Origin: Balneola sp. EhC07
GTDB lineage: Bacteria > Bacteroidota > Rhodothermia > Balneolales > Balneolaceae
DNA length: 64,000 bases
NCBI RefSeq assembly: GCF_001650905.1
Contig: NZ_LXYG01000014.1
Span: 186,001 to 250,000, forward strand
Direction: 5' to 3'
Positions 16,222 through 40,389 of the stretch are shown here, piece after piece. The notes beneath the pieces are model-generated. The model ran no database searches. It had not been told where the DNA came from and worked only from the letters and a program-made list of their open reading frames with translations. Position 1 is the stretch's first letter, and the number at the start of each line of letters is the position of its first letter. Made by a program: the position numbers and the translations under genes.

Positions 16222-17283
16222 TCAGGCTTCAGCTTTTTCAGGCTCTTTTTCCTTCTCTTTGGATGCATCAGGAATTGGTTCATCCAGTTCTTCGCCACGA
16301 AGTTTAGCACGTACCAGTTTCTCAATGCTTTCACAAAGCTTGGGGTCTTCTTCCAGGAATTGCATTGCGGCGTCAGCACCTTGTCCAATAGGTTCGCCAT
16401 CGTAGCGGAACCAACTACCGCGTTTCTCAATTACATCGAATTCAACAGCCAGATCCAGAATCTCAGCGATCAATGAAGTCCCTTTTCCATACATGATATT
16501 GAATTCAACCACTTTGAAGGGTGGAGCCACTTTGTTCTTGGCAACTTTTACTTTAGTCCGGTTACCGATTACTTCATCGCCTTTCTTAATAGCACCAATT
16601 CTTCGGATATCCAAACGAACAGAAGAATAGAATTTAAGTGCGCGACCACCAGTAGTGGTTTCAGGATTGCCAAACATAACTCCGATCTTTTCACGAACCT
16701 GGTTAATGAAAATGCAGGAAGTATGTGTTTTACTCACAATACCGGTGATCTTTCTGAGTGCCTGCGACATCAAGCGAGCCTGAAGTCCCATATGAGAGTC
16801 ACCCATTTCGCCTTCCAGTTCCGCTCGTGGAACCAGTGCAGCTACGGAGTCAACAACGATCACATCCAGCGCACCGGAGCGAATCAGTGTTTCTGTAATT
16901 TCGAGTGCTTGTTCACCACTGTCAGGTTGTGATACAAGAAGTTCGTCTACTTTTATCCCCAATGCTTTAGCATATCTGGGATCGAAAGCGTGTTCAGCAT
17001 CAATAAAAGCAGCGTATCCGCCATTTTTTTGTGCCTGTGCAATTACCTGTAGTGCCAAAGTAGTTTTACCACTCGCTTCCGGGCCGTAAATTTCCGTTAC
17101 TCTACCTCTTGGTACACCTTGTACGCCCAATGCATAATCTACCATAATGGAACCGGTTGAAATAACGTCCACATCCTGAACGGCGTCTCCGCCCAACTTC
17201 ATGATGGTTCCTTTCCCGTGTTGTTTTTCAATTTGCCCGACGGCAATATCTAATGCTTTAGATCTTTCTTTTGAGTCAGCCAT
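16222..17283 (-). CDS. recA: Recombinase RecA
   Basis: Strand-exchange ATPase of homologous recombination and SOS co-protease. The 353 residues have Walker [10 protein letters not shown] at 67-75, '[10 protein letters not shown]' as Walker B, and the L2 region '[21 protein letters not shown]'. The C-terminal tail is unusually Lys/Glu/Pro-rich, where E. coli has a purely acidic tail. Upstream there is a TAnnTTTG-like -7 box and a LexA-like box (listed separately). It is followed by a terminator and recX. Confidence 0.98.
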
Positions 17284-17442: not shown

Positions 17443-17790
17443 TTAAGCAGCTTTCAGAATTATTGAAGACATTATTTTCAATAATTGCGTTGCTTCATCC
17501 AGCAAATTTGATCGTTCTTTTTCAAGATGTTGATGAGTACCGGTATCTACTAGTTTTAGCCAGTAGCATGTTTCTTTAGCTTCTTTTCTGGAGATCTTCA
17601 TTCTCATTTTGAAGTCTTTTTTACTCAAAGCTTCATTGGCTTCTATATAATTCGCTCCGATAGAACCCGAAGACCTGATCAACTGTTTACCATCTTCGAA
17701 GTTAGAAGTACAACGCGGAAGCTTTTTAACAAACACTCTTGTTGCTTTCGCAAAGACCAATGTACGTTCTTCTAGATTGTAATTTTTCAT
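17443..17790 (-). CDS. Four-helix-bundle protein (23S rRNA-intervening-sequence protein family)
   Basis: About 115 residues from the ATG at 17790 (MKNYNLEERTLVFAKA). It shows the family pattern: 'LIRSSGSIGANYIEANEALSKKDFKMRMKISRKEAKETCYWLKL', then a last helix. The S23/bAvd-like fold forms homopentamers in studied relatives; rRNA IVS copies sit in 23S stem-loops and Avd homologues serve diversity-generating retroelements. No reverse transcriptase or rRNA is present here. The gene is enclosed by 29-bp imperfect inverted repeats that reach to within a few bases of start and stop, so gene plus repeats look like one mobile or foldable unit. Its molecular role is unknown. Confidence 0.85.
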   Translation of the reverse strand: MKNYNLEERTLVFAKATRVFVKKLPRCTSNFEDGKQLIRSSGSIGANYIEANEALSKKDFKMRMKISRKEAKETCYWLKLVDTGTHQHLEKERSNLLDEATQLLKIMSSIILKAA

Positions 17791-17795
17791 TTGTC

Positions 17796-17824
17796 TGGAA
17801 TTTGTAGTTTGAAAATTGAGATTT
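17796..17824 (-). repeat. Right terminal inverted repeat of the four-helix-bundle element
   Basis: Partner arm of 17412-17440 (27 of 29 positions complementary). It starts 5 bases upstream of the enclosed gene's start codon. The whole unit is 413 bases. Confidence 0.75.
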
Positions 17825-17987
17825 ACCAAACCTTGGTTCTTAGTAAGACAGCCAGAAAAGAATTCCTTACAAAAAAAGTTTAAATCAGATCTATTTAAAG
17901 AGTGCTTCTTAATTGATTTTGTTTATTTTAATCGAGAAAAATTAGATCCATTTTTCTAAATCAATTAATGCTTCAATAAAATTTAAA

Positions 17988-18623
17988 ATGAAAATTTTCA
18001 TAACAGTAGTACTCGCTTTATTTGTTCAAAATTTAGCAGTTTCTCAGGCTCAAGAGCTTTTTGATTATTTAGAAGAGAATACAGAAGTAATTAGCTCTGA
18101 TACTTTGCATGTCTTTTATTTTGAAGAATGGAATGATGATTACACTTCAAGTAAAATTATAGAATTCGAAGGGAAATTAATCGATAGTGAATGGAACGCT
18201 TTAATTTCAAACTATCTATCAGTTGAAAATAAAGCTTATTTGATTGGCAAAATAAATATTGATGATAACTATTCTGGTTTTCTAATCCGTCATCTATCAA
18301 CATACAGTCCCGAAAAAATCTCTTTGCTTGTTTTTGATCACATCGATGATAATTTTACAACCAAACAATTGATAGCTGATAGTGGTGGAGATGGCACCTG
18401 GGTGTATGAAGTTGATGGCTGGTTATTAGATATAAACGAAGACGGAAAGTTCGATCTTGTAAATTGGAGAACAGAACGCTGGGAAGATGATGAAACAGAA
18501 GAACGGCATAGATCTGATTCTGTTTACGTGAGCTTTTGGAACGGTACTGAATTCGAATTAGAAAAATCGGCTCAAATTGATACTAGTAAATTCAAAACCT
18601 ATTACGATAAAGTATTTAATTAA
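17988..18623 (+). CDS. Secreted hypothetical protein
   Basis: 211 residues with a clear signal peptide (about 1-21, ending SQAQ). The mature part is acidic and rich in Trp, Tyr and Asp, with 'ISLLVFDHIDDNF' and an EF-hand-like acidic stretch 'DINEDGKFDLVNWRTE' that could bind calcium. I do not recognise a family. It probably sits in the periplasm or outside the cell. The stop is close to or overlaps the following zinc-ribbon gene. Confidence 0.6.
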   Translation: MKIFITVVLALFVQNLAVSQAQELFDYLEENTEVISSDTLHVFYFEEWNDDYTSSKIIEFEGKLIDSEWNALISNYLSVENKAYLIGKINIDDNYSGFLIRHLSTYSPEKISLLVFDHIDDNFTTKQLIADSGGDGTWVYEVDGWLLDINEDGKFDLVNWRTERWEDDETEERHRSDSVYVSFWNGTEFELEKSAQIDTSKFKTYYDKVFN

Positions 18624-18630
18624 GCTAAAA

Positions 18631-18954
18631 TTGACTACACCATACCACTTATCTTATGCTTGCACAGAATGTCGCAAGTCTTTTAAAAGGCATGTTAATT
18701 TGATGGAAGAAATTCCAAAAGAACTTTCATGTCCTGATTGTGGTAAACCTGCAATTAATCTGGGACGACATTTTAAGCCACCAAAAAAGAGTGACAAAAA
18801 ACAATGGGAAAAAATTAAATTTCTAATTGATAATGGCTTCAGGTTTCAAAAAATACGAACTGGTTCAGGTCATCACGAAACAATTCCTTATCCAGAGACA
18901 TTAGAAGAAGCAAAGGAATTTGTAGAAAAAAATAAACAGTACGCTAAATCTTAA
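18631..18954 (+). CDS. Small zinc-ribbon protein, conserved hypothetical
   Basis: About 107 residues from a TTG at 18631 (TTPYHLSYACTEC). An upstream ATG at 18577 would overlap the previous gene by 47 bases and adds a stretch that does not look conserved, so I prefer the TTG. Two CxxC knuckles, 'CTEC' and 'CPDC', form a likely zinc ribbon. They are followed by a basic 'GRHFKPPKKSDKKQW' segment and 'YPETLEEAKEFV' near the end. Similar small proteins occur in Bacteroidota without assigned function. Confidence 0.65.
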   Translation: MTTPYHLSYACTECRKSFKRHVNLMEEIPKELSCPDCGKPAINLGRHFKPPKKSDKKQWEKIKFLIDNGFRFQKIRTGSGHHETIPYPETLEEAKEFVEKNKQYAKS

Positions 18955-18991
18955 TTTTAACCCATTTCCAAAGCTCCTGCTCCGAATAGCC

Positions 18992-19528
18992 TCAACCTGT
19001 AAACAAAGTAATCGGAATAAGCCCATCCTTTCCCAAATAATTTAAAGCAGACGAGTATCTCCAATGCTCTGGAAGATTAACAAAACCTGCTTTAACCGGG
19101 TTAAAATGAATATAATCGATAAAGCTTTCCATTTTCTTGAAAGTGTTTACTTGTTTCGGATACGAACCTTCTTCCCAAATCTGGTAGGTGCTTTCTATTT
19201 TATGGTTTCTCTTTCCTCGCTTTAGTCTCTTTAGAAAAACAATTCGATTAGCTGATTCCAGATACCGAACAATTTCACGAGCTGTAAAGGATTTAAATTT
19301 TCGGATGTCTTCTGAGAGGTTACTGCTTTCTGCAACTAAGTGAAGGTGATTATGCATTATTACAAATCCATATATTTTGACGTTTAATTTGGATTGGAGG
19401 TGCATGAATGCTTTAAGGATTATTTCGCAAATCCGAGGATCTGAAAACAGATCTATTCCATCCACAATTGAACAGGTCAGAAAATAGGGAAATTCAGATT
19501 CGTAAAATTTAAAATTACTCCTTGCCAT
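18992..19528 (-). mobile_element. REP-associated tyrosine transposase (RAYT, Y1/HUH family)
   Basis: 178-residue single-strand DNA transposase of the TnpA_REP/RAYT type. The HUH metal motif is 'MHNHLHLV', and the catalytic tyrosine lies in 'SFIDYIHFNPVKAGFV'; 'WRYSSALNYLG' follows. The gene looks intact. In known systems RAYTs act on REP hairpins in trans and are domesticated single-copy genes. Here two near-identical twin-hairpin REP units lie upstream of it (19504-19690 and 20346-20550), the second carrying a copy of the transposase's own first 25 or so coding bases, which links enzyme and repeat. Confidence 0.9.
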
Positions 19529-19690
19529 AGTTGGTAAGACAAGTTCAGTTCTAATTCCTTACAATTTTAGTTTAGAAGAGATATTTGGAGCGGGAGCTCC
19601 AAGTTACAATCCCAAGCAGGAGCTTGGGATGGAGATTTAATCCTTGTAACTTGTTATTTGTTTGATATTCGATGCTTGTCTTTTGGAATT
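19504..19690 (+). repeat. REP/REPIN-like repeat, copy 1 (twin hairpins)
   Basis: About 190-base unit that overlaps the 5' end of the RAYT gene. It contains two hairpins, GGAGC-GGGA-GCTCC at 19587-19600 and CCCAAGC-AGGA-GCTTGGG at 19611-19628, both with purine loops. The unit is almost the same as 20346-20550, with similarity fading in the AT-rich tail. Confidence 0.85.
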
Positions 19691-19810
19691 TAATTTCAGT
19701 TGAAATTTTAGCTTTCGACTAACTAATTAATTCTGTTACTTCAATTAAACTCAAAAAATCTTCACAGGTTAAACCCGGGTTTGTTAATCGTATAACTTAA
19801 TTATCCATCT

Positions 19811-20197
19811 ATGAAATCTAAGAGTGTTATACTTTCTTTCTTTTTTAGCCTAATCTTAATTTCTTGTGACAGTACCATGCTGATCAAGGTTGGTATGGGA
19901 GAAAAGCTTGCAAATCAAGATTATACTCTAATAGATTATAACTTTGTATTAGCTAATTCTGATAGCTCGGATAAACTTTATTTCGAGTTTGTCACTAATA
20001 AAGAATTAACTCCTTCTACCGTAATTACATTTCTAGATAAATCAGGCAAACTTTTTGCTGCAAAAGAAGCGGGTAGTGCCAGCTCCTTAATTGGTGAAGG
20101 CCTTGATGTTTCAGGTGAAAAATCATTTGTCTATAGTGTCAGTATTGATGATTTGCGTTCAGTATCTTTATTACATAAAGTGAACATTGGGAAGTAA
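19811..20197 (+). CDS. Hypothetical lipoprotein
   Basis: 128 residues with a lipoprotein signal: basic start, hydrophobic core and lipobox LISC at about residues 16-19. The mature domain ('YNFVLANSDSSDKLYFEF...STVITFLDKSGKLFAAKEAG') is beta-rich with no recognised family. It is probably anchored in the outer membrane. It lies exactly between the two direct copies of the REP unit, so it may have been moved or duplicated along with them; that is inference. Confidence 0.6.
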   Translation: MKSKSVILSFFFSLILISCDSTMLIKVGMGEKLANQDYTLIDYNFVLANSDSSDKLYFEFVTNKELTPSTVITFLDKSGKLFAAKEAGSASSLIGEGLDVSGEKSFVYSVSIDDLRSVSLLHKVNIGK

Positions 20198-20345
20198 TAT
20201 AAAGCATTGCAAGCGGACTCGGACGGGGTTCGGAATATTTTAATTTAGCTTGAGTCACCATCCTTACTACTACCTTCGGATTAAACTCATAGTTTTTATT
20301 TATAATTTTTATTGTTGTTTGTTTACCTGTATTTGGGCAAACAGA

Positions 20346-20550
20346 TGAAATTTAAAATTGCTCCTTGCCATATTCTAGTAGGACAAGTTCAGTTCTAATT
20401 CCTTACAATTTTAGTTTAGAAGAGATATTTGGAGCAGGAGCTCCAAGTTACAATCCCAAGCAGGAGCTTGGGATGGAGGGCTAGTTGTTTAAATATTGCA
20501 ATTTGTTATTTGTCTGAAATTTGGTACTTGTTTTTTGAGATTTTTATTTT
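20346..20550 (+). repeat. REP/REPIN-like repeat, copy 2 (twin hairpins)
   Basis: Direct copy of 19504-19690 with hairpins GGAGC-AGGA-GCTCC at 20431-20444 and CCCAAGC-AGGA-GCTTGGG at 20455-20472. On the minus strand it begins with the same first codons as the RAYT gene (ATGGCAAGGAGCAATTTTAA) and then diverges, so it is a decayed or partial transposed copy that took the 5' end of the transposase with it. It fills most of the gene-free stretch 20198-20572. Confidence 0.85.
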
Positions 20551-20572
20551 CCCTGAAAATAAACCTCAGCAC

Positions 20573-21694
20573 TTATTCTTCTAAATCTTCGGGTATTTCA
20601 TAAGTAAGCGGAAGCATGTCAGAAAGCTTTTCAAATCCCCAGTATCCATCAAAAAGAATTGAGGTAGGGTCGAGAATAAATCCGGATCTATCTACCAGAA
20701 CTGAATCAGAGATCAGCGTTATGGAAGAGTTTTGGTAATCCGACAAAAGACGGGGATTGCTGTCGAAGGGTTTTGCAATAGAATACAAATAAGTAATGTC
20801 TTCGTATTCATTTTTATAGGTGACATTCAGAAAATTAACGAAGTTATATTCATAATAGGAGCTGTCAACTTGGTGGAAAAACTGTGATTGTGGGACGGTA
20901 TCCGTATATAAATACCGTGCATCATCATCTCTTTTTTCTGCTTTTACAACAAAGCCATTTTCAACAATTTTTTGGTCAATTAAAGATTTAGTGAAATGTG
21001 CAAAAGATCCTAAATAAGCTTTCTCTCGATTTTCTTTCCATTTATTCCGGGTTTTTTTCCTGCGGGAACTCATCTCTTCAAAAAAAGTCTGTCCGTAGAA
21101 AAAGAATCTTCCTGATTTATAGTCGATCTCAAAACTTTCTAAGAAAAAAGAGATCCGGTAACCAAGGTCTTTGTTTTCAACTTCAATTGTTTCGTAAGCA
21201 AAGGCGTTCAGAGTCCTGTTATCCATATCAAAATCAAAGTTCACCACTTCTTTATTTTTGATTTTAGTGTTCTTCGAAAAGGGACCTACACCAATAAACA
21301 TCTTTCGAAATTGTTCAAAGTTGTATTTCCAGTCCTGGCTGTTTGGTTTAACTGTAATTTCATCCAGATTGTACACTTTCTCTTTCATTATAAAAGAGTA
21401 TTGATCCTCTAATTGATCTGTTCGAATTAAAGAAGTAACACTTTCAAAACCCAAACTTTGAACAATCAGATCATGAGCTCCCTCGGGTATACCTGATAAA
21501 GTAAAATTACCATCTCCATCAGAAAGCGTTCCAATAGTTGAACCATTCAGGAAGATTTGAGCTCCTGCAATTGGATCAAGGTCAACCTGACTTTTTACAG
21601 TGCCGGAGATCGAATATTCAGTTTGAGCAAATACAGTAAATGAGGTAATAATGACTACAAAAAAAGTCGAAATTACTTTGTAGTTAAAGAGCAT
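20573..21694 (-). CDS. Carboxypeptidase-regulatory-like domain protein, secreted/outer-membrane associated
   Basis: 373 residues. Signal peptide ends at about residue 23 (TVFAQ). Next comes a CarboxypepD_reg-like beta domain (about 27-115): 'YSISGTVKSQVDLDPIAGAQIFLNGSTIGTLSDGDGNFTLSGIPEG', the same fold found at the front of SusC-type receptors, but no TonB box/barrel follows. The remaining 250 residues, with 'RISFFLESFEIDYKSGRFFFYGQTFFEEM', resemble the unknown C-terminal domain of many Bacteroidota surface proteins. The start overlaps the kynureninase stop by 11 bases, so the two are translationally coupled, for reasons that are not clear. Confidence 0.75.
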   Translation of the reverse strand: MLFNYKVISTFFVVIITSFTVFAQTEYSISGTVKSQVDLDPIAGAQIFLNGSTIGTLSDGDGNFTLSGIPEGAHDLIVQSLGFESVTSLIRTDQLEDQYSFIMKEKVYNLDEITVKPNSQDWKYNFEQFRKMFIGVGPFSKNTKIKNKEVVNFDFDMDNRTLNAFAYETIEVENKDLGYRISFFLESFEIDYKSGRFFFYGQTFFEEMSSRRKKTRNKWKENREKAYLGSFAHFTKSLIDQKIVENGFVVKAEKRDDDARYLYTDTVPQSQFFHQVDSSYYEYNFVNFLNVTYKNEYEDITYLYSIAKPFDSNPRLLSDYQNSSITLISDSVLVDRSGFILDPTSILFDGYWGFEKLSDMLPLTYEIPEDLEE

Positions 21695-39695: not shown

Positions 39696-40218
39696 GTCAT
39701 CCTGTCCGCCAGCTGGCGGATCAGGATCTTAGCAAGATTTATTTCTAGTTGCAATATCCGGCACACCGATCAACGCTGTGAATCCCCTCGATTTTAAACT
39801 GGTACCGATGCTCTGCGTCGGAAACGGACCTCCCCGGTGCCGACACAAATTCTTGGGTTCTGAGTAGTTCGCCCCTCCCTGGATAAGGAGGGGAATTCCC
39901 GAGTAGATTCTAAATTTTATCAACGAGTCCTCCTTCTGTTGCAGGAGCCTGCCTTTAATCGCTGCGGGATAAATCCCTGGCCGGTGTACCTGATTAAATC
40001 TGTGGCTCCACCATCACTCCCAATCAAGTTTACCAGTGAGGACTTTAGTCCGATCGGCTTCTTTTCGTAGTTAAAATCCTCGTCCACAAAACCGCAGGAC
40101 TGAAGCCCTTGCTAGCTTATGTGAGAGTTCAAGAAAATAAACATAGCCTTTGTTTATGGTAGTAATACAGATTCAAGACCTATTCCTTACAAAGATCCTG
40201 AAACTAGTTCAGGATGAC
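39696..40218. repeat. Interval bracketed by inverted GTCATCCTG half-elements
   Basis: The left end (39696-39731) and the right end (40192-40218) are inverted copies of the termini at 27650-27756, but 460 bases apart. The interior carries several unrelated small hairpins. It could be a non-autonomous element or an old repeat split by insertion. Confidence 0.5.
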
Positions 40219-40389
40219 CTACTTAAATATCTAAATTGATAATTTAAACAAGGAGGACGTTTACGTCCGGAGGGTTAGTACATTTTTGAAAAGAACCCAG
40301 ATCTCGGGTATACACTTCACATTTAAAAATAGTCACACTCCTAAACAAATGACGGTTTCAGAAAAAGCCTCCAACTATACCGACCTTTA

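Follow-up and report, generated by a model that had tools for sequence, protein, structure and literature searches.

The window analysed here, a 64,000-nt stretch of a contig of Balneola sp. EhC07, carries on its minus strand a gene for a RAYT / TnpA-REP transposase of 178 aa (18992..19528), recognized from its ORF translation, an NCBIfam profile and a PDB sequence match. The protein contains the two hallmarks of the Y1 HUH transposases, HxH and YxxxNP, in the form NHLH and YIHFNP, and scores 93 bits with the NCBIfam model REP_Tyr_transpos (NF047646; cut-off 80), in agreement with the intact HUH transposase of the original prediction, which had named HLH and YxxxNP. The Pfam family Y1_Tnp gives 20.2 bits, just under its cut-off of 23, and the only PDB sequence matching at E ≤ 1 is the E. 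coli TnpA-REP 4er8 (E 0.0078). The closest named relative is the RAYT of Balneola sp. HXMU1428-10 (L090), with 97% identity. A second RAYT of the EhC07 genome, on contig C1, is 49% identical to that of the window and is flanked on both sides by hairpins of its own, unlike the window type. In one relative (G037), RAYT fragments at the ends of contigs C5, C6 and C7 suggest a multi-copy RAYT element. No tnpB is present among the ORFs neighbouring the window RAYT, and an Rfam scan of positions 17500-21000 returned two sub-threshold chance matches only. The minus strand also carries recA (16222..17283), assigned from its translated sequence and with an orthologue (L066) that matches RecA in a profile scan, and, just upstream of it, a gene for a four helix bundle / 23S rRNA IVP protein (17443..17829; the listed ORF has a TTG start, with an in-frame ATG further in).

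On the 5′ side of the RAYT gene lies a twin-hairpin unit of REP type (19575..19641, plus strand), composed of the hairpins GGAGC(GGGA)GCTCC at 19587-19600 and TCCCAAGC(AGGA)GCTTGGGA at 19610-19629. When the 52-nt twin-hairpin piece is folded as DNA, it reaches z-scores of -7.5 (plus strand) and -7.9 (minus strand), and none of 200 shuffles is as good. A degenerate hairpin remnant directly follows the RAYT stop codon (18965..18988, minus strand) and folds no better than shuffles. At the same place, Balneola sp. HXMU1428-10 (G007) carries a complete inverted twin unit, so that both cognate units flanking its RAYT are intact. Taken together, the upstream twin hairpin and the remnant after the stop codon, complete in G007, indicate that the RAYT gene is seated between two inverted units, of which the 3′ one is degenerate in the window. 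It had been proposed that the unit overlaps the RAYT start; 58 nt separate the hairpins from the ATG further downstream, and it is the repeated segment described below that crosses the start.

A second twin-hairpin unit is located at 20419..20485 (plus strand), followed by a repeated flank at 20488-20543 (77% identity to 19636-19691). In the self-comparison of the window, segment 19534-19634 recurs at 20378-20478 with 98% identity and a spacing of 844 nt, and the RAYT start (19505-19529) recurs at 20348-20372 with 96% identity and a spacing of 843 nt. The second unit consists of a 5′ remnant of the RAYT gene holding its initial 24 coding bases (20348..20372, minus strand), the intervening segment, the twin hairpin and about 56 nt of the 77% identical flank, much as predicted (a near-identical unit some 840 bases away with about 25 coding bases). 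It is a truncated local copy of the 5′ side of the RAYT gene, and appears to be variable, because G007 has two small ORFs, different genes, at that place.

The hairpins themselves are far more widespread. Since a first pattern, AGCWSSWGCT, was too loose for counting units (111 sites versus 9 in the control, with mixed loops), a covariance model was built from 12 units, 11 from EhC07 and one from G007. It finds at least 35 matches at E ≤ 1 in the EhC07 genome, 19 of them below 1e-10 (150 of 2560 candidates scored), and 5 to 35 matches in each of the 8 Balneola genomes (150 candidates scored per genome), counts that are rough because the model itself contains EhC07 units, was applied to 150 candidates per genome and also catches the second RAYT's hairpins, which are related. 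The best match in G005 reaches only E 0.006. ORFs of at least 100 aa enclose none of the 12 EhC07 units examined, and two of the units touch the end of an ORF; the hairpins are thus dispersed and extragenic, as those of RAYT / TnpA-REP systems are. These matches bear out a RAYT with cognate dispersed intergenic hairpins and exceed by far the two copies that would have pointed to a plain local duplication. As a whole explanation such a duplication is ruled out by the genome-wide matches, and it still explains the copy carrying the RAYT start. The 12-unit alignment has no GT[AG]G at the stem foot, the tag of canonical REPs, mostly reading TATT before the stems and -GAG after them, and the anticipated difference of stems and loops from gamma-proteobacterial REPs was found in this sense, the hairpins being unlike GTAG-tagged REPs. 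A GAG trinucleotide a few bases past the outer hairpin (12-unit alignment; L189/L211) is common to two RAYT families with different stems and is a possible recognition or cleavage tag. Strong units of the window type are also present in G001, G002 and G004, whose RAYTs are no closer than 48-51%, suggesting that the hairpin units either outlast other RAYTs or are served by them.

A relative, G003, contains a pair of RAYT copies, 56% identical to that of the window, with 726 nt in common at 98% identity. The duplicated block is bounded by perfect inverted hairpins, beyond which the flanks are unrelated, and contains the hairpins, the RAYT gene and, with two mismatches, the promoter-like motif introduced below. 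At least in this relative, the RAYT cassette moves as a unit, judging from the aligned copies. At the locus of the window, G002 has no RAYT and carries a single hairpin at the point at which the two hairpin halves of the window would join; this presence or absence would reflect a gain or a loss, in either direction.

Between hairpin and ATG, the two window units have a segment in common that was overlooked in the original prediction and that would be the promoter-like motif of a regulon, GTAAGGAAT-N12/13-GTCTTAC, where N13 gives a 29-nt form and N12 a 28-nt form. Motif searches place an N13 copy at 19534..19562 (minus strand), ending 5 nt ahead of the RAYT start codon, and a second copy with one mismatch (GTCCTAC) in the truncated unit at 20378..20406 (minus strand). 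An exact 28-nt form lies upstream of the four-helix-bundle gene (17843..17870, minus strand); it is what had been taken for a weaker, decayed fragment of the repeat at 17845-17875, where there is no hairpin unit. At 40162..40190 (minus strand), the motif with one mismatch precedes the start of a broken GIY-YIG gene, identified by eye. The surrounding region (about 40080-40240, minus strand), with hairpin, motif and broken start, looks like a relic of a multi-copy GIY-YIG unit that recurs in the EhC07 genome, in several places and at contig ends. With up to three mismatches, the window contains 6 matches of the 29-nt form versus 0.59 expected, a number reached in none of 100 shuffles, and 2 of the 28-nt form, one of them exact, versus 0.58 expected, which is no excess (14 of 100 shuffles).

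From the 62 RAYT matches listed, 30 loci were taken, three of which (L195, L207 and L213) are cut by contig ends and unscored; 24 of the remaining 27, a set that includes close relatives (L031/L188, L199/L032), have a site within three mismatches upstream, which leaves three loci without. Among 40 window ORF upstreams used as control, a single one does, namely that of the RAYT itself. The start codon follows 4-6 nt after the motif in many RAYT, comEC, GIY-YIG and DUF559 cases, 12-34 nt after it in many RAYTs of other genera and mostly 12-65 nt after it in other targets.

Genome-wide, 21 exact sites were found in EhC07 and none in a backwards control (the stricter pattern excludes three longer double matches, L048 of 24 nt and L050, TATCTTAC, out of 26 looser rows). 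Ten of the 21 precede GIY-YIG genes or their remains (three with a listed ORF, the rest by their first codons; two are cut by a contig end, the gene not being visible), and three precede four-helix/23S-IVP proteins, one of them by eye. Single sites precede genes for an IS200 TnpA, ComM (YifB), the window RAYT, SSB, RadC, a putative anti-sigma factor, another Y1 protein (71 bits versus the REP_Tyr cut-off of 80) and a PD-(D/E)XK/helicase protein. Allowing two mismatches gives 35 sites of the 29-nt form (3 in the control; 30 were inspected with their locus, five are without locus) and 9 of the 28-nt form (1 in the control), and adds the second RAYT, a further TnpA gene, a four-helix gene, two additional Y1-like proteins, one of them scanned, and comEC, whose GTG start lies 5 nt after a motif with two mismatches. 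Such sites also occur at GIY-YIG relics, and several stand before unrelated genes or none.

Exact sites in relatives extend the set to recA, recQ, a DUF559 nuclease, a metallo-beta-lactamase protein, recN (by eye; its SMC_N match is under the cut-off) and an integron integrase (TIGR02249, 433 bits versus 265). Integrase genes 35 nt behind the motif were seen on contigs G007:C18 (L143, integron integrase by TIGR02249) and G020:C5 (L116, by Pfam scan only). The recA gene follows the motif directly in two relatives and, in the window, via the gene ahead of it. Some exact sites in relatives stand ahead of genes that have no evident connection with DNA, which was counted against a regulon. The targets combine a DNA-uptake channel with recombination genes, as expected of a competence regulon: comEC, ssb, comM, radC and recA.

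This range of targets bears on whether the motif is simply a part of the RAYT's own repeat, with no regulatory meaning for the host. The second window unit holds motif and hairpins together and the motif travels inside the G003 cassette, as such an ordinary RAYT with REPs would have it. However, besides the two window units and the weak match L008, significant hairpin matches cover the hairpin part only, and the motif also precedes comM, ssb, radC, comEC, recA and the sigma-linked gene, with sites conserved at core genes across genera, making this explanation very improbable. There is no support for the idea that units carrying the transposase 5′ end form a mobile class by themselves: only the RAYT and its window copy match the promoter-plus-start region well, and the weaker match L008 (72%), which stops short of the region around the start codon, may be a relic.

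The presence of recA, recN, ssb and an integron integrase, typical SOS genes, could also mean that the motif is the LexA box of the group and the RAYT a DNA-damage gene. SOS motifs of Bacteroidetes and their link to SOS genes are treated in PMC8565304, and the Balneolaeota LexA site given in PMC7739468 is a direct repeat, TTACACATATTTTWTACATA, supported by EMSA. Compared by eye with that consensus, the motif is mismatched, and the LexA box was rejected as its identity. Furthermore, a LexA-like sequence (by eye) lies directly behind the motif at the recA loci L066 and L068, so that motif and LexA site look distinct, and the SOS reading has hardly any probability left. The recA genes of G005 and G006 (L066 and L068) thus carry a sigma-type motif and then a LexA-like sequence, as if under a dual promoter/operator.

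For comEC, 30 loci were taken from 41 matches, and the partial L276 and L281 and 7 order-level loci were set apart from the 21 loci of the family. GTAAG is present upstream in 20 of these 21, and 16 are within three mismatches of the motif, the other five having no such site; at L264 no site was seen at all. In the control, GTAAG occurs in the 90 nt upstream of 3 window ORFs out of 40. Among the order-level loci, a site was seen by eye in 3 of 7 only (L274, L277 and L280). The exact motif is present in 8/8 Balneola genomes and in 12/28 other genomes of the family; outside the family, 3 of 260 genomes have one match each, the backwards control giving 1 match in all. Motif variants would explain part of the family genomes with no exact site.

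A candidate for reading the motif is encoded next to it. The neighbours of the motif at this locus were read in EhC07, G007 and G003. There it is flanked on one side by an ECF-like sigma gene (C17:55404-55946 in EhC07) and on the other by the gene for a TPR protein of 265 aa, with a likely membrane segment (by eye), which is probably the anti-sigma factor of the adjoining sigma, a role judged by eye. The sigma orthologues show sigma-70 region 2 and 4 homology, 29 of 29 scanned matching the sigma70-ECF model TIGR02937 at E ≤ 0.001 (best 1.3e-15), while the Balneola protein stays under the curated cut-offs (40.3 of 124.6 and 35.9 of 42.9 bits); with the latter, a Pfam scan gave no match and a profile search of PDB sequences no sigma match. 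In 40/40 Balneolaceae loci, the stop codon of the sigma gene is followed by a GTAAG-anchored site, at -4 to +27 nt and mostly at 1-2 nt, and 34 of the 40 are within three mismatches of the whole motif. The set derives from 47 family genomes: G011, G038 and G045 have no match, the weak matches of G022, G027 and G036 were kept outside, L224 (G019) is at a contig end, L176 was replaced by L235, and the order-level loci L227-L233 and the paralogue L234 stand apart. Six of the seven order-level loci have GTAAG by eye (L233 has none). The sigma or a relative is present in 72 of 78 relatives, a wider spread than that of the exact motif. Counted against the sigma is G045 (86% complete), which has one exact motif, before ssb, and no sigma match at E ≤ 1e-15. 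Most relatives carry two sigma matches of this kind, and the second, paralogous ECF-like sigma of EhC07 (C4:72085-72621, L234) has no motif behind it; it is possible that this paralogue reads the motif instead.

The last seven bases of the motif, its -10-like part, vary by genus alike at sigma and RAYT sites, being mostly GTCTTAC in Balneola, CTCTTAC/CTCTAAC in g4 and TTCATAC in g19. Across 9 genera, the within-genus distance between sigma and RAYT sites averages 1.12 versus 1.90 when permuted, and 3 of 20,000 permutations were as low, against 3,732 of 20,000 for the spacer used as control. For sigma and comEC sites (12 genera) the figure is 4 of 20,000, a weaker case of covariation because the spacer control is also low (38 of 20,000). 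All sites were anchored on GTAAG alone. In the RAYT permutation, L209 and L210 (distant/partial) and L211 (a copy of L189) were left out and 22 of 24 RAYTs were anchored, L190 and L212 having GCAAGG. The fixed 29-nt anchor puts four 28-nt comEC sites one base out of register, and likewise the RAYT site L203 (30-nt form).

GTAAG is partly mirrored by CTTAC in an inverted repeat spanning 28-29 nt, and a dimeric transcription factor bound to half sites GTAAGRMA could accordingly use the motif as operator instead of a sigma factor using it as promoter, the RAYT still belonging to the regulon. Against this speak the position of the motif behind the ECF sigma gene in 40/40 loci and before the membrane/TPR protein in the three loci with neighbours read, the many start codons 4-6 nt after the motif, and the shift of its right half by genus (e.g., TTCATAC), which is then no longer the full mirror of GTAAG. 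An operator appears unlikely on these grounds, though less so than the two readings above.

The explanation preferred here, and held to be probable, is that of a mobile RAYT cassette placed under a sigma regulon of competence and recombination. The cassette would consist of the gene for an HUH single-strand transposase flanked by inverted twin-hairpin units on both sides (that on the 3′ side decayed in the window), its hairpins also being scattered across Balneola genomes. The RAYT would be read from a promoter of the ECF-type sigma conserved in Balneolaceae, with GTAAGGAAT as -35-like and GTCTTAC as -10-like element. With its start codon about 5 nt downstream of the -10-like element, the RAYT mRNA is probably leaderless, given the geometry of ECF promoters and starts so close to the motif. 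The sigma gene would be followed directly by its own promoter type, driving the putative anti-sigma membrane/TPR protein in a feedback loop. The same promoter type would stand ahead of comEC, comM, ssb, radC, recA, recQ, recN, the integron integrase and small mobile-type gene families. Inferred from sequence comparison are the promoter role of the motif, its recognition by the conserved sigma, competence as the nature of the programme and the activity of the RAYT at that stage. Sharing this promoter type with uptake and recombination genes, the RAYT would be made during a programme of DNA uptake and recombination, when single-stranded DNA is available. A further step, advanced tentatively and less likely to be right than wrong, is that RAYTs, IS200 TnpA, the integron integrase and the GIY-YIG and four-helix families are made together with incoming ssDNA, RecA and SSB in sigma-controlled competence, the cassettes and hairpins moving, or serving the host, during uptake.

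To our knowledge, the role of RAYTs for their hosts and the timing of their expression are an open question. A promoter apparently shared with uptake and recombination genes suggests when such "domesticated" transposases act, and a promoter-like motif that groups the RAYT with comEC, ssb, comM and radC makes a direct test possible in a marine genus. In addition, the findings point to a dedicated competence-type sigma outside the Firmicutes, to which an integron integrase is linked. No earlier report of such a sigma-linked RAYT/competence set was found among the open-access articles searched. The RAYT with its hairpins would follow a known pattern, and it is the apparent placement in a competence-like sigma regulon that seems worth following.

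IS200/IS605 elements combine Y1 HUH chemistry with hairpin ends. The cassette is alike in both, but its ends are inverted twin hairpins and there is no tnpB among the neighbouring ORFs. In the Firmicutes, the ComX and SigH regulons place an alternative sigma over comEC, ssb, recA, radC and comM-type genes. The Balneolaceae set appears to do the same, whereas it involves an ECF-type sigma, a putative membrane anti-sigma, another promoter and another phylum, and also covers RAYT, IS200 TnpA, GIY-YIG, four-helix and integron integrase genes. With the Balneolaeota LexA regulon set out in PMC7739468, recA is common, but the DNA site differs and lies beside the motif at recA. The nearest system is the RAYT/REPIN "REPtron" of TnpA-REP subclass 2.6 (Bertels group 5), characterized in PMC6006769 by NH[LIV]H, WQ and YIH[QN]NP, a length of about 179 aa and no GT[AG]G tag. 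The 178-aa HUH Y1 protein with NHLH, the flanking and dispersed hairpins, the lack of GT[AG]G and a taxon on the Bacteroidetes side are alike in both. Compared by features, the window RAYT has WE and YIHFNP where the subclass has WQ and YIH[QN]NP. It is further set apart by a sister cassette duplicated whole within one genome and by a conserved promoter, apparently of sigma type, before the gene.
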